DNA of 33,131 bases. Source: an uncultured Methylophaga sp. (GTDB lineage Bacteria > Pseudomonadota > Gammaproteobacteria > GCF-002020875). The DNA lies in contig CALEHW010000047.1 in the NCBI GenBank assembly GCA_937877715.1, forward strand, positions 1 through 33,131, in the 5' to 3' direction. The position numbers were made by a program, and so were the translations under genes. The notes beneath the pieces are model-generated. The model saw only the letters and a program-made list of their open reading frames with translations, was not told where the DNA came from and ran no database searches. The first letter of the stretch is position 1, and the number at the start of each line of letters is the position of its first letter. This document shows positions 16,482-25,161 of the stretch, in pieces.

Positions 16482-16486
16482 ACGCC

Positions 16487-16502
16487 TATCGCCTCCGCGA
16501 TA
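16487..16502 (-). promoter_or_regulatory. Short hairpin enclosing the dsrM ribosome-binding site
   Basis: TATCGC and GCGATA form a perfect 6-bp stem whose loop is GGAG, the dsrM Shine-Dalgarno sequence. The stem ends five bases from the ATG. It could tune dsrM translation, but a stem this short may also be chance. Confidence 0.4.
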
Positions 16503-16563
16503 ACATCTCTACAGGTGATTACGGTACAAAATCAGAAGATAACAGCTAGACTAAATCCTGAAT

Positions 16564-16708
16564 AAATTATTACTCAGATTGCCGACTGTAGGGTTCCAGT
16601 GCAAGGCAGAAAATGTAAATTTATCTTGATGCCCGTGGGTACAAGTGTAAATGATCATTTTCAAACGCCGCAATGGGGCGCTACAGTCGGTAAGCTGAGT
16701 AAGAATTT
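16564..16708. repeat. 145-bp imperfect palindrome between dsrC and dsrM
   Basis: Arms 16564-16591 and 16681-16708 (28 bases) are complementary except at three positions. An inner pair, GAAAATG with CATTTTC, continues the fold towards a central hairpin around CTTG...CAAG. The right arm ends on the first base of the dsrC stop codon region, so the structure begins where dsrC ends on the mRNA. It may be a processing or stabilising element that sets dsrC transcript levels apart from dsrM onward, or an inserted MITE-like element. Confidence 0.8.
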
Positions 16709-17043
16709 TAGATACAGCCTGTTGGCTTGGGTAGCCCACCAATCTTACAAGCCTGCTTTGCTGGACCATATGGGAACAGCTCGTAGAGATACTTGCTATT
16801 ACCCTTGTCCTTGCCAAGCTTCTTACCAATTGCCTTGGTCAGTACACGTACTGCAGGGGCAATCTGATACTCGTCATAGTACTCACGCAAGAAGTCAATG
16901 ACCTCCCAATGTGAATCAGTCAGTTCAACCTCTTCAGTCTCAGCCAATGCTGTTGCAATTTCCCTATTCCAGTCATTGATATCAGCGAGGTAACCTTCCT
17001 CATCTACTTCAACTTCACTTCCGTTTACGTCCATACTTGGCAT
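16708..17043 (-). CDS. dsrC: DsrC, sulfur carrier of the Dsr pathway
   Basis: This 111-residue cytoplasmic carrier has both redox cysteines of true DsrC. They are C99 (KQACKIGG) and the penultimate C110 (KPTGCI), ten residues apart on the flexible C-terminal arm. The DsrC-type loop (KLGKDKGNSKYLYELFP) is also present. It accepts sulfur from DsrEFH and delivers it to DsrAB, and the oxidised form is the substrate of DsrMKJOP. The ATG at 17043 has AGGAG 7 bases upstream. The 51-bp AT-rich gap after dsrH includes a possible TATATT -10 element, so a separate promoter is conceivable. A large palindrome follows the stop codon. Confidence 0.98.
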   Translation of the reverse strand: MPSMDVNGSEVEVDEEGYLADINDWNREIATALAETEEVELTDSHWEVIDFLREYYDEYQIAPAVRVLTKAIGKKLGKDKGNSKYLYELFPYGPAKQACKIGGLPKPTGCI

Positions 17044-18273: not shown

Positions 18274-19347
18274 TCAGAAACGGATATGTGTAGAGGCATT
18301 CAGTCTGGCAGTTGCGCCACGCCAGGTATCAATATGGTATTTAGTGAATGGAAGACCTGTCTTCTCAAAGAATGCTGGCCAGCCAATACGCTCAGCCCAC
18401 TCACCCATACGCTCCCAATCTCTCGCATCCTCTTTGTAGACTGCAAGAATCTTCTTGACCACAGCGCCAACCTCGGGCCAGCGTGGAGGATTGTTGGGAA
18501 GGCCAGCTGCAACCAGCTTGTGGAACATCGGCTTGCTACGTGCGTTGGAGTGTTTGCCACCAACCCAAACAGCCAGCTTGGAGTGCTCAGGATCATTGAT
18601 CAACATTGGAGGACATGGTGGGAAGCATGCACCACAGCAGACACATTTCTTCTCATCAACCTCAAGTGAGGGCTGACCATTTACCACTGCTGGACGAATC
18701 GCCGCTACTGGACAACGTGCCACAACAGTTGGGCGCTCACAGACGCCGGAAACCAGATCATGGTTAATTTTTGGTGGCTTGGTATGCTGAATATTGATTG
18801 CAATATCGCCTTGGCCACCACAGTTGATCTGACAGCATGAAGAGGTAATCTTCACACGATTAGGCATCTCTTCACGAATAAATTCTTCATGCAGCTCATC
18901 CATTAGGGACTTAACCGCACCAGATGCGTCAGTTCCAGGAATATCACAATGCATCCAACCCTGGGTATGGGAGATACTTGTAATGGAAGGTCCGGTTCCG
19001 CCAACAGGGAATCCCTCTTCATTCAGGCGCTCAATAAGTGGTGCCACACGGCTCTCATCCTTACAGAGGAACTCAGCATTATTACGCACAGTAAAGCGGA
19101 TATAACCATCACTAAACTCATCAGCAATATCTGCCAACATGCGAATAGTGTATAGATCCATCTGACGCTGGGTACCACAACGGACACTCCAGATCTCATC
19201 ACCAGATTTGGCAACATGGTGAAGTACGCCAGGACGAGGGCGATCATGGAACTTCCATGCTCCATAGTTCTCTTTCATGATTGGGTGCATAAACGGTATT
19301 GCGCTTGGTACACCAGTCTCCTCCGGCATGCGGGGTGCTTCTGCCAT
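18274..19347 (-). CDS. dsrB: DsrB, reverse dissimilatory sulfite reductase beta subunit
   Basis: This 357-residue subunit of the siroheme enzyme works with DsrA to oxidise DsrC-bound sulfur to sulfite. The cluster/siroheme region has C134 (GWMHCDIPGTD) and SSCCQINCGG (169-178). The inserted ferredoxin domain has C212 (RCPVAAI) and CVCCGACFPPC (235-245). The pattern MKENYGAWKFHDRPRPGV near the N-terminus is typical. GGAGAA lies about 8 bases before the ATG. The gap after dsrA is 53 bases. Confidence 0.98.
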   Translation of the reverse strand: MAEAPRMPEETGVPSAIPFMHPIMKENYGAWKFHDRPRPGVLHHVAKSGDEIWSVRCGTQRQMDLYTIRMLADIADEFSDGYIRFTVRNNAEFLCKDESRVAPLIERLNEEGFPVGGTGPSITSISHTQGWMHCDIPGTDASGAVKSLMDELHEEFIREEMPNRVKITSSCCQINCGGQGDIAINIQHTKPPKINHDLVSGVCERPTVVARCPVAAIRPAVVNGQPSLEVDEKKCVCCGACFPPCPPMLINDPEHSKLAVWVGGKHSNARSKPMFHKLVAAGLPNNPPRWPEVGAVVKKILAVYKEDARDWERMGEWAERIGWPAFFEKTGLPFTKYHIDTWRGATARLNASTHIRF

Positions 19348-19400: not shown

Positions 19401-20753
19401 TTACGCGCTCTCTCTTTCTTCCCACTTGGCCACCTCGTCATCCCAATCATCCATACGGACATATGGGGTTGTACGCGGCACAGAAACCATATTGGGATCA
19501 ATCTCCAGATCCATCCCCTCTAGGTAAGCAGGCAGACCAATACGTTCGATCATCTCACCAGAGCGCTCATGCTCCAGGGCATTCTCTGCAAAGAAGTCTA
19601 CATGGTCACCACAGATCTCGAGGAAACGCTCCTTGTCTTCCTCAGTCTCCAACCTCATGAATGGAACAATAACGTTACCGAAGAGATCTCCAATCTTCAG
19701 GGTACGCTTACCACCCATCAGAATAGTGACTCCCTTGTCATCACCCTGGGCAAGAATGGCATCTCCATCCTTACCAACATACTTTTGGCTCTGTGAAGAG
19801 ACAACGTTGATACAGTGCATACACTTAACACACTCTTTATTAGTTATTTCAAGAGCTGTATCCTCACCCATGCTCATGCACTGTGTTGGGCAGCGACTGA
19901 TAATGTTATCAGTGACATACTTAGCGCCCTTATCTGCAACAAATGCCTTCCACCCGTCTTGGTTAATCTTGATGTCATCACGCCAGGTACCAATCACTGC
20001 CATATCGGCACGCTGAATGGCGTTAGTACAGTCATTTGGACAACCAGAGAACTTCCACTTCATCTTGTATGGAAGTGCAGGACGGTGCATGTCATCGAGG
20101 AACTCATTAATTGTGGCCTGCAGGAGGTCACCTTCATTGTAGCATGACTGCTCACAGCGGGCAGCGCCAACACAGGATGCCGCAGTACGGACAGCTGGGC
20201 CTGCACCACCGAGATCAAAACAGAAGTCTTCAACACCAAGATCCTTAAAGGTCTCAGTATCATTCAACTTATCAAACGCAACCTGTACACCATCTGTATC
20301 AGTACCCTGAAGCAGAATGTCGCCAGACTGGCCATGCAGGCACATAAGACCGGTTCCAGTTTCACCCCAGACATCACACATTTTTCTGAGAAGATCCGAA
20401 GTATAGTGCAGACCCGCAGGTGGCATGATACGTACTGTATGGAACTCCAGCGCATCGGGATACATGGTCTCGCCACTCTCGTTCTTCAGCTCAGAGAAGC
20501 GGGGAATGATACCGCCACCATAACCGATAACACCTACAGTACCGCCCTTCCAGTAACCGCGACGGTTAACGAAGGATTGCTCCAGGGTACCAGTAACGCC
20601 ACGCATCATCTTACTGTGCTTGGTATCTGATGCCGCAATACGTTTCAATGAACCAACATAACTTGGCCAAGGACCATTTTCCAGCTCATCAAGGTTAGGG
20701 GTTGGAATATCCAGCTCAGGGATATTTGTATTCAGCTTGGTCTTCTCTGACAT
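19401..20753 (-). CDS. dsrA: DsrA, reverse dissimilatory sulfite reductase alpha subunit
   Basis: This 450-residue subunit is the first gene of the dsr operon. The siroheme-[4Fe-4S] ligands follow the C-x5-C and C-x3-C pattern at C194, C200, C238 and C242 (SCVGAARCEQSC; SGCPNDC). The ferredoxin insertion has C288, C292, C308, C311 and C314 (RCPTQC; ECVKCMHC). Length and layout match oxidative-type DsrA. The ATG at 20753 has AAGGAG about 10 bases upstream. A candidate promoter lies far upstream near 21046-21074, giving a leader of nearly 300 bases with two mutually exclusive hairpins. Regulation by the divergent NarX/NarL-type pair is inferred from position. Confidence 0.98.
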   Translation of the reverse strand: MSEKTKLNTNIPELDIPTPNLDELENGPWPSYVGSLKRIAASDTKHSKMMRGVTGTLEQSFVNRRGYWKGGTVGVIGYGGGIIPRFSELKNESGETMYPDALEFHTVRIMPPAGLHYTSDLLRKMCDVWGETGTGLMCLHGQSGDILLQGTDTDGVQVAFDKLNDTETFKDLGVEDFCFDLGGAGPAVRTAASCVGAARCEQSCYNEGDLLQATINEFLDDMHRPALPYKMKWKFSGCPNDCTNAIQRADMAVIGTWRDDIKINQDGWKAFVADKGAKYVTDNIISRCPTQCMSMGEDTALEITNKECVKCMHCINVVSSQSQKYVGKDGDAILAQGDDKGVTILMGGKRTLKIGDLFGNVIVPFMRLETEEDKERFLEICGDHVDFFAENALEHERSGEMIERIGLPAYLEGMDLEIDPNMVSVPRTTPYVRMDDWDDEVAKWEERESA

Positions 20754-21001: not shown

Positions 21002-21030
21002 GGGATACCCTACATACCCCCAATGGGATA
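21002..21030. promoter_or_regulatory. Cluster of four TAYCCC motifs, candidate NarL-type operator
   Basis: Reverse-oriented GGGATA at 21002-21007 and 21025-21030 alternate with TACCC at 21006-21010 and TACCCC at 21015-21020. The right half reads TACCCCC-AA-TGGGATA, close to the 7-2-7 inverted heptamer layout of NarL sites (TACYYMT and its complement). It is centred about 35 bases before the start predicted from the plus-strand TATAAT. Confidence 0.45.
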
Positions 21031-21164: not shown

Positions 21165-21350
21165 ATGTTGAATTTGAGCGAGGTGCTGATGGAACGGCAG
21201 CACCAGATGGATGGCTTTGAGGATCTGGTCCGGGCAGTACATGAACAGGCGCGCGCCAAAAACGAGCGCTTCTTCCGCATGGATGTCCGCCCACCCTTCG
21301 CGGATACCCCGGAGAATTGGGAGGATAGACTAGAGGCAGCCTTTTACTAG
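21165..21350 (+). CDS. Small charged protein, first gene of the dsr-divergent operon, uncharacterised
   Basis: The 61-residue product begins MLNLSEVLMERQHQMDGFED and ends DTPENWEDRLEAAFY. An amphipathic helix rich in Arg, Glu and Gln (about 4-36) is followed by a Pro-containing linker (DVRPPFADTP) and an acidic tail. It has no cysteine, signal peptide or membrane helix. The ribosome site GAGAG is weak to fair. It is followed after 17 bases by the next gene. I do not recognise a family; size and charge suggest an adaptor or partner of the proteins encoded next to it. Confidence 0.7.
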   Translation: MLNLSEVLMERQHQMDGFEDLVRAVHEQARAKNERFFRMDVRPPFADTPENWEDRLEAAFY

Positions 21351-21367: not shown

Positions 21368-22030
21368 GTGGAAAATTTTAATATCGAAGAGAGTGAAGAG
21401 AGCATGGAGTCACGCCTGGCCGATCTGGAGGCAAGACTACAAGAGCTCTCTCCCTCAACTGAACGTGCCGAGCTACTGCTTGATTACGGCACCCTGCTAC
21501 TCGGATTGCAGCAGAAGAGGGAGGCCTGGGATGTTGCCTGGGAAGCGTTCAACATATTCACTGCAGAGGAGGTTTGGGAGCTGGCTGTGGTTGCTACCGA
21601 TATCCTGGTCTCTGCCGATCAGGATGACTCCATGATTGCCCTGGCCCATGGGATCTGGCTCGGCATCACCTATCCTATCAACCCGGAAACCACTACCGCC
21701 ATTCTGCAACACATGATCGATGAGTCCCCTGTGGGTTCTGATACTGCAGCAGTTGCCGCCGTCACCTCACACTTTCTCGCCGACCATCGGCGCCGGGAGG
21801 GACAGAGTGGAGACAACCTCCTGTTTTTAACCAGTCAGCGCCTAGCCGAGGTTGCTGCCCAGCACCGCAACATCAAGAGTCAGGATGAGTTTGATATCTG
21901 GATGGCGGGCAACGAGTTTGACAACCCCGACTCATTCCTCCCCAAACTCTCTGCCGCTGTCGATGCCCTGGCCGATGGAACATGGTGGATAAATCGTGAT
22001 GCGCTACGTACAGCACTACCCAAGACATAG
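21368..22030 (+). CDS. TPR-like helical protein, uncharacterised
   Basis: The product is 220 residues from the GTG at 21368; an internal ATG at 21404 would shorten it by 12. The sequence is almost entirely helical. The stretch LLDYGTLLLGLQQKREAWDVAW has the spacing of tetratricopeptide-type repeats. The C-terminal half includes AEVAAQHRNIKSQDEFDIWM and GTWWINRDALRTALP. There is no cysteine, signal peptide or membrane segment, so it is probably a cytoplasmic scaffold or regulator. It ends 14 bases before the Cas6-like gene, which suggests that the two proteins work together. I know of no named family. Confidence 0.75.
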   Translation: MENFNIEESEESMESRLADLEARLQELSPSTERAELLLDYGTLLLGLQQKREAWDVAWEAFNIFTAEEVWELAVVATDILVSADQDDSMIALAHGIWLGITYPINPETTTAILQHMIDESPVGSDTAAVAAVTSHFLADHRRREGQSGDNLLFLTSQRLAEVAAQHRNIKSQDEFDIWMAGNEFDNPDSFLPKLSAAVDALADGTWWINRDALRTALPKT

Positions 22031-22044
22031 AACCGGGCCATCAA

Positions 22045-22737
22045 ATGACATTTTGGGAAGAAGATGAAGATGAGAAGCTGGCTACAGTCTCGAATGAGAT
22101 TGTGGATCTGAGCTTTCGGATCCAGTGCAAGATCCTGCCGGTTGATCATGGCTGGGAGCTTGGTCAAGCTATCGTCAAATACCTGCCGTGGCTACCAGAT
22201 GAACCAGATGCAGCCCTACACCAGATTCTAGTGGCAGAATCCGGCAATGGCTGGCTCTCTCCAGAGGGTGGAAATGCCATGCTCTACCCATCCCGCAGAA
22301 CAAGATTGGCCCTGCGCCTGCCAAAACAGCGGGTGGATGAGACCATTGCCGCACTTGACCGGCAGACCCTGAACCTTGCAGATCGATATGAGATTCTGCT
22401 GACCAATCCAGAGCTCCACCAACTGAGCAGACTGACCACACTATATACCCGCTTCGCCATTTTTCATGAGGGAGAGTCGGAAGAGCAGTTCCTTGAGAGA
22501 ACTCAACACCAACTTGCGACACGGAATATTCATCCACGCAAGATGGTTTGTGGACGCATAAACCTGTTGAACAAAGATGGCAAAGAGGTAGTTACTAAAA
22601 GCCTGATGCTGGCAGAGTTGACCCTCAAGGAGTCCATCGCACTACAACAGAGAGGGCTTGATGAGGGAAAAGATTTCGGCTGTGGGTTGTTTTTACCCCA
22701 TAAAACAGTGGAAAATCTCCTCTCGGAAGATAATTAA
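22045..22737 (+). CDS. Cas6/Cmx6-like RAMP protein outside a CRISPR locus
   Basis: The 230-residue product matches the pattern I know for the type I-MYXAN Cas6/Cmx6 family along most of its length. It has an early strand then LPVDHGWELGQAIVKYLPWL (31-50, with H35). RRTRLALRLP (84-93) follows, then LYTRFAIF and QFLERTQHQLATRNI. Near the end are LTLKESIALQQRGL and the glycine-rich loop ending DFGCGLFLP (210-218). Cas6 proteins are RNA endonucleases that cut CRISPR transcripts. No repeat array or other cas gene is present, and the operon is linked to sulfur metabolism, so a different RNA or regulatory role is likely. Here the first loop glycines are partly replaced (GLDEGKD). C169 and C213 are its notable late cysteines. 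Confidence 0.75.
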   Translation: MTFWEEDEDEKLATVSNEIVDLSFRIQCKILPVDHGWELGQAIVKYLPWLPDEPDAALHQILVAESGNGWLSPEGGNAMLYPSRRTRLALRLPKQRVDETIAALDRQTLNLADRYEILLTNPELHQLSRLTTLYTRFAIFHEGESEEQFLERTQHQLATRNIHPRKMVCGRINLLNKDGKEVVTKSLMLAELTLKESIALQQRGLDEGKDFGCGLFLPHKTVENLLSEDN

Positions 22738-22811: not shown

Positions 22812-23150
22812 ATGAGCTATGAAGTCAATGGAGAGACCATCGAAACCAACCCCAACGGCTATCTTGAGAACATCGATGAGTGGAATAAGGACGTCGCCAG
22901 TGTGATTGCCGAGGAAGAGGGGATCGATATGAGTGACAAGCACTGGGATGTTGTTAACTATCTGCGCGATGAATTTGTAAACAATGGGGGCAATCAGCCC
23001 AATGACCGCCACATGATGAAGGCGCTGGGAGCGGCCTGGGGTGAGAAACTTAAATCCAAGGATCTCTACATGCTATTCCCCAAACAGCCATCCAAACAGG
23101 CCGGCAAGATTGCGGGGCTGCCTGAATCACGTCGCAAAGGCGGGTACTGA
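22812..23150 (+). CDS. Cysteine-less DsrC/TusE-family paralogue
   Basis: This 112-residue protein aligns with DsrC over its whole length. Shared segments are NPNGYLENIDEWNKDVA, the helix MSDKHWDVVNYLRDEF, then LYMLFPKQPSKQAGKIAGLP. It has no cysteine: the inner Cys is Gly98 and the penultimate Cys is Gly111 in a rewritten tail (ESRRKGGY). It therefore cannot carry sulfur as DsrC or TusE do. Such proteins have been set apart as a putative regulatory group (called RspA, as I recall). AAAGGAG lies about 10 bases before the ATG at 22812. It sits between the Cas6-like gene and a NarX-type kinase. Confidence 0.92.
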   Translation: MSYEVNGETIETNPNGYLENIDEWNKDVASVIAEEEGIDMSDKHWDVVNYLRDEFVNNGGNQPNDRHMMKALGAAWGEKLKSKDLYMLFPKQPSKQAGKIAGLPESRRKGGY

Positions 23151-23164
23151 GTATAGCTATTTAA

Positions 23165-24517
23165 ATGGCTGCATCTTCCCCACACTCAAATCTCGCCAGC
23201 CTGATTGAGTCACTTCGAGGCCGCTTTGATGATGGGGAGAGTGTTCCCGAGCTGGATCAGCTGGAGCAACGCCTGCTCAACCTTGAGCAGGAGACGGAGC
23301 TACAGATTCGCAACAAGACGCGGCACCTTGCGCAGCAGGCCGCCTCACTGCGAATCCTCTATGATGTAGTTGCCAGCCTCAACAGCTCGGCAAATGTACG
23401 GGAGCTGCTGCTCCGGTTCCTCTCCTTCCTCAAAGAGATGGTTGGTGCCGATGCTGCCACCATCCGCCTGCTGACCTCTGACCAACAGATGAAGCTACTC
23501 TCCAGTATCGGCATGGATGAAGAGCTGGTAGAGCAGAAGGGGGTTATCCCGGTAACCAACAGCCTCTGTGGCAAAGCCCTCTCCAGGCAGACCATTCTCC
23601 ACCAGGAGAATCCATGCGACTGTCGGGACGAGGATGGAGTTGAGCTCCCCTGCTCACAGCACGGCGTCATCATCGTCCCCCTCCAGCATCAGGAGCGCAT
23701 CCTGGGGGTCTACACCCTCTTTGTCTCTCCACAACGGCAGAATGTCAGCCAGGAGATGGATAGGCTGCTGCTCAATATTGGACAGAATCTGGGGATGGCG
23801 ATCGAGAAGTTCCGCCTTGAGCGCGAGGCTCAGAAGAGCAAACTGGACCAGGAGCGCGCCCATATTGCCCATGAACTGCATGACTCTCTGGCCCAGACCC
23901 TAGCCAGTCTGCGTATTCGTACCCAGATCATGGAGGAGCACCAGAAGCAGGCAGAGAAGGAGGCACCACAGGGTATCCAGAGGGGGGGGCACCACTATGA
24001 GATTCTCCATATTCAGCAGGGGCTCTACCAGGCCAACCGTGAGCTCCGCAGCCTGATCGCCAACTTCCGCGCCCCCATCCACCAACAGGGGCTGATCCAG
24101 GCCATCACCACGCTAACTGATGACTTCAGAAAAGAGACCGGAATCAATACCTACTTTCAACACCAGTGCGAGACCATTCAGCTGCCATCGGAGGTCGAGG
24201 GCCATCTGCTGCGAGTGATTCAGGAGGCCCTGACCAATATACGCAAACATAGCGAGGCCCAGACTGTACGCATCCTTGCGGACTGTATCGAGGAGCAGAG
24301 ATTTCGGGTTTTAATTGAGGATGACGGGATCGGTTTTCTACCCGAAAACAAAGTACCAATTGCCGGAGAGCATATCGGGCTCTCCGCCATGCAGCAACGG
24401 ATGGAGGCTATTGGTGGTACACTCGACATCGAGAGCGAGCCCGGCGAGGGTACCCGCATCACGATCACTGGAACCGTCAACGACAGCAGCGAGAAAGATA
24501 TCTTTGATCTGTTATGA
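23165..24517 (+). CDS. Soluble NarX-type sensor histidine kinase with cysteine-containing GAF domain
   Basis: This 450-residue kinase has no membrane segments. An N-terminal coiled coil (about 25-62) leads into a GAF domain (about 65-215). That domain holds C135, C151, C153 and C163 (SLCGKAL, then PCDCRDEDGVELPC). The HisKA_3 dimerisation helix follows with the phosphoacceptor H239 in AHELHDSLAQTL. The HATPase domain has N358 (QEALTNIRKHS), D387/G388 (EDDGIGF) and GEHIGLSAM. The four GAF cysteines resemble the Cys cluster of NarX/NarQ-type sensors and could bind a metal, heme or cluster, or react with sulfur species. It is 14 bases after the DsrC paralogue and overlaps the regulator gene by four bases. 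Confidence 0.95.
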   Translation: MAASSPHSNLASLIESLRGRFDDGESVPELDQLEQRLLNLEQETELQIRNKTRHLAQQAASLRILYDVVASLNSSANVRELLLRFLSFLKEMVGADAATIRLLTSDQQMKLLSSIGMDEELVEQKGVIPVTNSLCGKALSRQTILHQENPCDCRDEDGVELPCSQHGVIIVPLQHQERILGVYTLFVSPQRQNVSQEMDRLLLNIGQNLGMAIEKFRLEREAQKSKLDQERAHIAHELHDSLAQTLASLRIRTQIMEEHQKQAEKEAPQGIQRGGHHYEILHIQQGLYQANRELRSLIANFRAPIHQQGLIQAITTLTDDFRKETGINTYFQHQCETIQLPSEVEGHLLRVIQEALTNIRKHSEAQTVRILADCIEEQRFRVLIEDDGIGFLPENKVPIAGEHIGLSAMQQRMEAIGGTLDIESEPGEGTRITITGTVNDSSEKDIFDLL

Positions 24518-25161
24518 AAGTCCTGCTAATTGATGACCACACCCTGTTTAGAACCGGTATCGGAGCCCTGCTCCAGGGCCATGACATCCAGCTTGCAGCT
24601 GCTGTCGGCACTGGTGAGGATGGGATCCAGCTGGCGGCCGAACTGGGGCCCGATATCGTCCTGCTCGATCTGCGAATGCCGGAGATGGATGGCCTGCGGG
24701 TTCTGGTAGAACTCAAGAAACAGCATCCCGATCTTCCTGTGGTGATGTTGACCACCAGTGAGGATGAACATGATCTGCTGGCTGCACTGAAAAGTGGCGC
24801 CCAGGGTTATCTGCTTAAAGATATGGAGCCGGAGGAGCTAGTCTCCTCACTGACTCGCGCCCTGCAGGGAGAGGTTGTTGTGGCCCCCTCCATGACCCCG
24901 TTGCTGGCACGTGTTGCCCAGGGAGAGATTCTGCGGAATCATCAGAGAGATGACCTGCAGTCCCTGCTGACCCCACGAGAGTATGAGATCCTCTCTCATT
25001 TGGCAGAAGGACAGAGCAACAAGGTGATCGGCAAGGAGCTCAGCATATCTGATGGGACGGTAAAACTGCATGTAAAATCGATCCTTCGCAAGCTCGATAT
25101 CCATTCCCGGGTAGAGGCAGCCGTTATCGCAGTGGAACGTGGCATCACCAGACACCAATAG
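24514..25161 (+). CDS. NarL/FixJ-type response regulator
   Basis: The 215-residue product has an intact receiver domain with D7, D8, the phosphorylated D52 (LLDLRMPEMDG), T80 and K102. A LuxR-type helix-turn-helix (about 150-210; LTPREYEILSHLAEGQSNKV, then GTVKLHVKSILRKLDIHSR) follows. The start codon overlaps the kinase stop codon (ATGA), so the two form a cognate pair. Motifs resembling NarL heptamers occur in the dsrA divergent region, which makes the dsr promoter a plausible target. That link is inference. Confidence 0.95.
   Translation: MKVLLIDDHTLFRTGIGALLQGHDIQLAAAVGTGEDGIQLAAELGPDIVLLDLRMPEMDGLRVLVELKKQHPDLPVVMLTTSEDEHDLLAALKSGAQGYLLKDMEPEELVSSLTRALQGEVVVAPSMTPLLARVAQGEILRNHQRDDLQSLLTPREYEILSHLAEGQSNKVIGKELSISDGTVKLHVKSILRKLDIHSRVEAAVIAVERGITRHQ

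Follow-up and report, generated by a model that had tools for sequence, protein, structure and literature searches.

The Cas6 proteins described to date that come closest to the solitary protein analyzed here stem from CRISPR systems. Type I-MYXAN Cas6/Cmx6 shares its family (at the curated cut-off) and its fold, but the solitary protein lacks cas3, cmx8 and cas7 neighbors and has an extra N-terminal W motif, an invariant NGW loop and a PHK tail. Cas6 proteins on cyanobacterial plasmids, where cas3 together with cmx8 or cas8a1 was located beside four of the five examined, have D34, H35, R91, Q201 and the glycine-rich loop in common with the solitary family but are missing W4, N68-G69-W70 and the PHK tail. 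A Cas6/Cmx6 without cas neighbors was also seen on plasmid pGMOR1 of Gloeobacter morelensis (locus L146), where it adjoins a PAPS-reductase-family gene and a cupin gene. The nearest solved structure is the Cas6 of a type I-B CRISPR-transposon (PDB 8fcj chain B, TM-score 0.75-0.82), which is only 22% identical, has no NGW loop and carries N at the site of the presumed catalytic histidine. Among the neighboring genes, the one encoding a protein of 112 amino acids belongs to the DsrC/TusE family, but its product lacks both redox cysteines and ends in (R/G)KGGY. To our knowledge, most CRISPR exaptations known so far are linked with mobile elements or make use of guide RNAs. A precedent for a cas gene that is often found outside of CRISPR is given by solo Cas4 and other cas genes (PMC5704561); in contrast to these, the solitary Cas6 is tied to one pathway of the energy metabolism across many families.

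Family, fold and conserved residues

The solitary gene is located on a window of 33,131 nucleotides, i.e. the whole stretch of DNA that was analyzed, from an uncultured Methylophaga sp. (table 1). An earlier note, made from the sequence alone, had proposed a Cas6/Cmx6-like protein on the basis of three motifs, all of which are present (DHG at residues 34-36, RTRLALRLP at 85-93 and GCGLFLP at 212-218). Profile searches gave a hit to TIGR02807 ("type I-MYXAN Cas6/Cmx6") with 108.5 bits, above the curated cut-off of 98.85 bits, and to PF09559 with E=1.1e-50 (172.8 versus a cut-off of 26.7). A profile of 47 relatives retrieved PDB chain 8fcj_B at 9e-26, and an AlphaFold model computed with the alignment of these relatives as input reached a pLDDT of 89.4. 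All 47 matches of this model in a Foldseek search against the PDB (E<=0.001) were Cas proteins and nearly all were Cas6, among them Pyrococcus Cas6 with substrate RNA; the best TM-scores were 0.75-0.82. The model shows the tandem ferredoxin-like RAMP fold, and the outcome that would have refuted the proposal, namely no match to Cas6 models and an unrelated fold, did not occur. Judged by profiles and predicted structure, the protein is a genuine Cas6.

Table 1. Position of the solitary Cas6 gene, its neighbors and the promoter palindrome on the window.
Feature	Position	Strand	Remarks
Canonical dsrC	16708-17043	-	product ends in KPTGCI, in contrast to the paralogue
dsrB	18274-19347	-	profile match
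dsrA	19401-20753	-	divergent from module
Palindrome TACCCC-CAAT-GGGATA	21015-21030		between dsrA and module; consensus TATCCC-N4-GGGATA
Undescribed small protein	21165-21350	+	61 aa; first gene of putative operon; consensus ML.LSE...FF..DVKPP..DTP..WED.LE.AF
All-helical TPR-like protein	21404-22030	+	208 aa; open frame from GTG 21368; no Pfam/NCBIfam family
Solitary Cas6 (PF09559/TIGR02807)	22045-22737	+	230 aa; presumed catalytic His35, NGW loop 68-70, glycine-rich loop 204-214
Cysteine-free DsrC/TusE paralogue (RspA type)	22812-23150	+	112 aa; ends in ESRRKGGY; frame extendable to GTG 22770
GAF histidine kinase	23165-24517	+	genus-level neighbor
LuxR/NarL-type response regulator	24514-25161	+	genus-level neighbor

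Cas6 enzymes carry their general-base histidine between the first strand and the first helix. In the model, His35 lies between strand 19-27 and helix 36-46 and thus at the expected start of helix 1. In a survey of 125 distinct solitary proteins with about 40% identity, this residue was H in 123 and N in the other two, and H35 is also found in all five cyanobacterial plasmid members. Its retention at such identity argues for catalysis, an argument resting on residue conservation only. Residue 34 was D or E in 122 proteins, R85, R91 and Q201 were kept in all 125, and G204, G212 and G214 were each kept in at least 124, in line with the glycine-rich loop expected of Cas6. The loop had been described as partly altered, and correctly so for the window species, where D206 replaces the G found in 117 of the 125 relatives while the other three glycines are retained. 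The NGW loop (N68-G69-W70) is invariant in the solitary family.

Within the genus, dN is far below dS for the window gene, and the solitary Cas6 is under purifying selection. A quick maximum-likelihood tree with few outgroups separated the solitary group from the cyanobacterial one (SH-aLRT 98), with groups that largely track taxonomy, and on this limited basis the solitary family forms a branch apart from the CRISPR Cas6 proteins compared. An origin from mobile elements or phages was also considered and was rejected in view of these largely taxonomic groups and of a scan of viral contigs with the window protein alone, in which no relative was confirmed.

The dsr locus and its distribution

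The module genes share one strand and are divergent from dsrAB. Neighbors were counted at 150 Cas6 loci, some of them from overlapping genomes. A protein of about 60 amino acids was encoded near Cas6 at 135 of these loci (it was found at 136 loci in another count), a DsrC-family protein at 127, a TauD-like dioxygenase at 101, a TPR-like all-helical protein at 79, and a sulfurtransferase at one divergent locus. The ~60-aa protein had no match above cut-off in Pfam or NCBIfam, and substitutions in the gene for the 61-aa protein are concentrated at third codon positions; its family is strongly conserved in sulfur oxidizers. The TPR-like protein was modeled with a pLDDT of 93.8 and had no PDB match below 0.001. 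The dioxygenase resembles TauD/gamma-butyrobetaine hydroxylase (e.g. L061:8908-9840 and L165:9655-10575) and was not seen beside Cas6 in the window genus, where a GAF histidine kinase and a NarL/LuxR-type regulator are located just downstream of the module.

The DsrC paralogue was identified by TIGR03342 (99.3 bits). Since it is devoid of the C-terminal redox cysteines that would qualify it as a sulfur carrier, it should not relay sulfur. Its C-terminus RKGGY did not vary among the 46 relatives that were aligned first, and GKGGY was found at three divergent loci. The name RspA was reportedly given to cysteine-free DsrC proteins by Venceslau et al. in 2014, who suggested a regulatory role for them. 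In Allochromatium vinosum, DNA binding of DsrC upstream of the dsr cluster is documented in work cited by PMC5944118, and one DsrC-family paralogue, Alvin_1508, dropped about 7-fold along with dsrAB on pyrite (PMC11267869).

The solitary gene was present in all six genomes of the genus and in 118 of 369 genomes across the class, with one match each except for G002 (copies on two contigs) and G267 (a split gene). Cas6 and dsrA occurred together in 111 of the 369 genomes, Cas6 alone in 7, dsrA alone in 8 and neither in 243 (Fisher p=7e-75, odds ratio 482). No link to CRISPR was detected, with cas1 in 50 of 118 Cas6 carriers and 85 of 251 non-carriers (p=0.13); 68 carriers had no cas1. As genomes share ancestry, the p-value overstates their independence, yet with a spread over many families and no link to cas1 the pattern is clear. 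The exceptions to the pairing are mostly due to incomplete genomes or contig breaks. Five of the genomes with dsrA only (G075, G084, G215, G241, G357) are 55-88% complete, in two more the contigs stop about 110 (G211) and 410 (G114) bases upstream of the dsrA frame, and in G127 the small protein and the dioxygenase are still present at a contig end. All seven genomes with Cas6 only encode another module gene on the same contig.

Beyond the class-wide set, a scan of GTDB species genomes yielded at least 540 encoded relatives. The best 80 of these were taken as named loci and include Halochromatium, Lamprobacter, Thiothrix, Leucothrix, Cocleimonas, Sulfuricaulis, Thiogranum and two betaproteobacterial MAGs. 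Although many contigs end early, 64 of these 80 loci had a cysteine-free DsrC within 1.5 kb of Cas6 and 63 a divergent dsrA within 5 kb. Cas6 also adjoins dsrAB in three further genomes from a phylum-wide draw. In two small genomes (L054, L055) the Cas6 gene is beside neither dsrAB nor the DsrC paralogue, so that physical partnership at the gene level is not obligatory. Cas6 accompanies the genes for stored-sulfur oxidation as a constant partner in nearly every sampled dsr-bearing Gamma- or Betaproteobacterium, with or without CRISPR. The suggestion of an exapted Cas6/Cmx6 linked to dsr is borne out by family, fold, the lack of a CRISPR partner and the nearly perfect pairing with dsrAB irrespective of CRISPR, and we hold it with great confidence, while the RNA processing implied by that suggestion remains an inference. 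The further step, that Cas6 departed from CRISPR and now belongs to a conserved accessory module within the reverse dissimilatory sulfite reductase (rDsr) pathway, is one that we favor with some reserve.

Candidate RNA targets and the promoter palindrome

Two RNA substrates had been suggested in the earlier note, a structured dsr leader and the dsrC-dsrM element. An Rfam search of the window returned a tRNA as the single match, and no obvious hairpin was shared by the gaps between cas6 and the DsrC paralogue among the sequences listed. The dsrC-dsrM gap (16482-16707, minus strand) contains a strong long hairpin, with a z-score of -7.7 over the first 140 nt past the dsrC stop. Hairpins in this gap are strong in many genomes, but their sequences are unrelated even within the genus. 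The element was set aside as the Cas6 target on these grounds, although it is still not excluded as a substrate; it may be an mRNA stabilizer of dsrC.

A palindrome (consensus TATCCC-N4-GGGATA) was matched at 11 or more of 12 positions in 48 of 73 dsr promoter regions, taken upstream of dsrA from loci L044-L160, versus 0.3% of shuffles. As an RNA hairpin for Cas6 it was rejected: many half-site changes are uncompensated, which points to a DNA operator, and the 4-bp spacer is fixed. The spacing resembles that of a NarL-type dyad. From sequence comparison, the palindrome is a probable DNA operator of NarL/LuxR type for the dsr genes.

Possible functions of the solitary Cas6

An ordinary Cas6 might serve CRISPR arrays in trans. 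The matching profile is named after type I-MYXAN Cas6/Cmx6, type III systems are able to rely on a Cas6 supplied in trans (PMC12669027), and the host genome (1.89 Mb, 74 contigs, 99.8% complete) does contain an array. The earlier note had stated that neither an array nor another cas gene was visible in the 33 kb. This holds in so far as no other cas gene was found among the window ORFs scanned, nor the type I-MYXAN context of adjacent cas3, cas8a1/cmx8, cas7 DevR and array among the window genes scanned. The genome does have CRISPR in other places, namely a full type I-E operon (cas3, cse1, cse2, cas7, cas5, cas6e, cas1, cas2) on contig 34 and 31 exact repeats spaced 61 bp apart on contig 1, with one more repeat at the end of contig 34. 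Arrays were sought via the I-E repeat and cas families and not by a de novo genome-wide scan. The I-E operon has its own Cas6e (L042:8160-8738 on contig 34; TIGR01907, 129.6 bits), which is distinct from the window gene, so the solitary Cas6 is not needed for a visible CRISPR system, and an array elsewhere that is served by the window gene, which the note had named as a refutation, was not encountered. Neither a type III RAMP gene nor a DevR-type Cas7 (I-B/MYXAN) was found in the host genome, the latter family being absent from all six genomes of the genus; one genus mate (G004) has a type I-F cas1. On this gene content, service in trans was rejected for the host genome, and with more than half of the Cas6 carriers being without cas1 we give it hardly any credence.

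Three other readings keep Cas6 within the dsr context or move it to a different RNA. The nuclease might be lost or unused, leaving a protein that merely binds RNA as a scaffold or as an antiterminator for the module; the fold and the glycine-rich loop would be preserved even if RNA were bound but not cut, two of the 125 members have N instead of the histidine, and the CRISPR-transposon Cas6 as closest solved relative likewise reads DNG at this site. The histidine of the other 123 members at about 40% identity argues for catalysis, and we consider a mere scaffold unlikely. A structural adaptor between proteins in Dsr complex assembly, without any action on RNA, would suit the fixed company of the DsrC paralogue and the TPR-like protein, but the RNA-contact features (histidine, conserved arginines and glycine-rich loop) rank with the best conserved positions, which leaves this reading quite improbable. 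We are just as doubtful of a module acting on tRNA or another stable RNA, e.g. in a sulfur- or oxygen-dependent modification by a TusE-like protein, Cas6 and a 2-oxoglutarate dioxygenase. The E. coli DsrC homologue TusE does work with the tRNA thiolase MnmA (PMC3397948), and both the frequent TauD-like dioxygenase and the sulfurtransferase of one divergent locus would fit; however, a paralogue without sulfur-carrying C-terminal cysteines should not relay sulfur, and Cas6 is tied to dsrAB and not to the far more widespread tRNA thiolation.

The best reading of the data is that Cas6 belongs, as a subunit that binds and probably cuts RNA, to an accessory module of dsr whose role is most likely regulatory; both binding and cleavage are inferred. 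That the solitary protein acts on RNA at all is an inference that we consider likely; that this RNA is a dsr transcript, or the regulator of one, is a tentative suggestion. Cas6 would bind a stem-loop in a cellular RNA and, to judge from its conserved residues alone, would probably cleave it. It may work in complex with the DsrC paralogue, which might report on, or dock to, the Dsr machinery, and the outcome would be post-transcriptional control of a dsr-related RNA that tunes dsr expression. A wider proposal, which we advance as no more than a conjecture, is that sulfur-oxidizing Gamma- and Betaproteobacteria possess a ribonucleoprotein module consisting of the Cas6 endonuclease, the cysteine-free DsrC, the ~60-aa protein and often the TPR-like protein and/or the 2-oxoglutarate dioxygenase, which senses the state of the Dsr pathway, processes a specific RNA and sets the output.

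No report of a link between Cas6 and dsr or DsrC was found in the open-access literature searched, including searches for RspA and A. vinosum locus tags. Within this literature, the Cas6 family itself is known and the role tied to rDsr is new. The curated profile labels the solitary protein as CRISPR machinery, yet hundreds of genomes carry it and more than half of those sampled lack cas1. Provided that the protein belongs firmly to the rDsr pathway, it would clearly exemplify how a Cas RNase is domesticated for core metabolism. Its gene would then mark reverse-type Dsr in these bacteria, and a defined set of genes would make it possible to test how stored-sulfur oxidation is regulated. Should the RNA-processing module prove true, it would represent a regulatory system of the energy metabolism derived from a CRISPR enzyme, in contrast to the exaptations known so far. 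Our findings suggest that energy metabolism long ago took an RNA enzyme of the immune system into its service.
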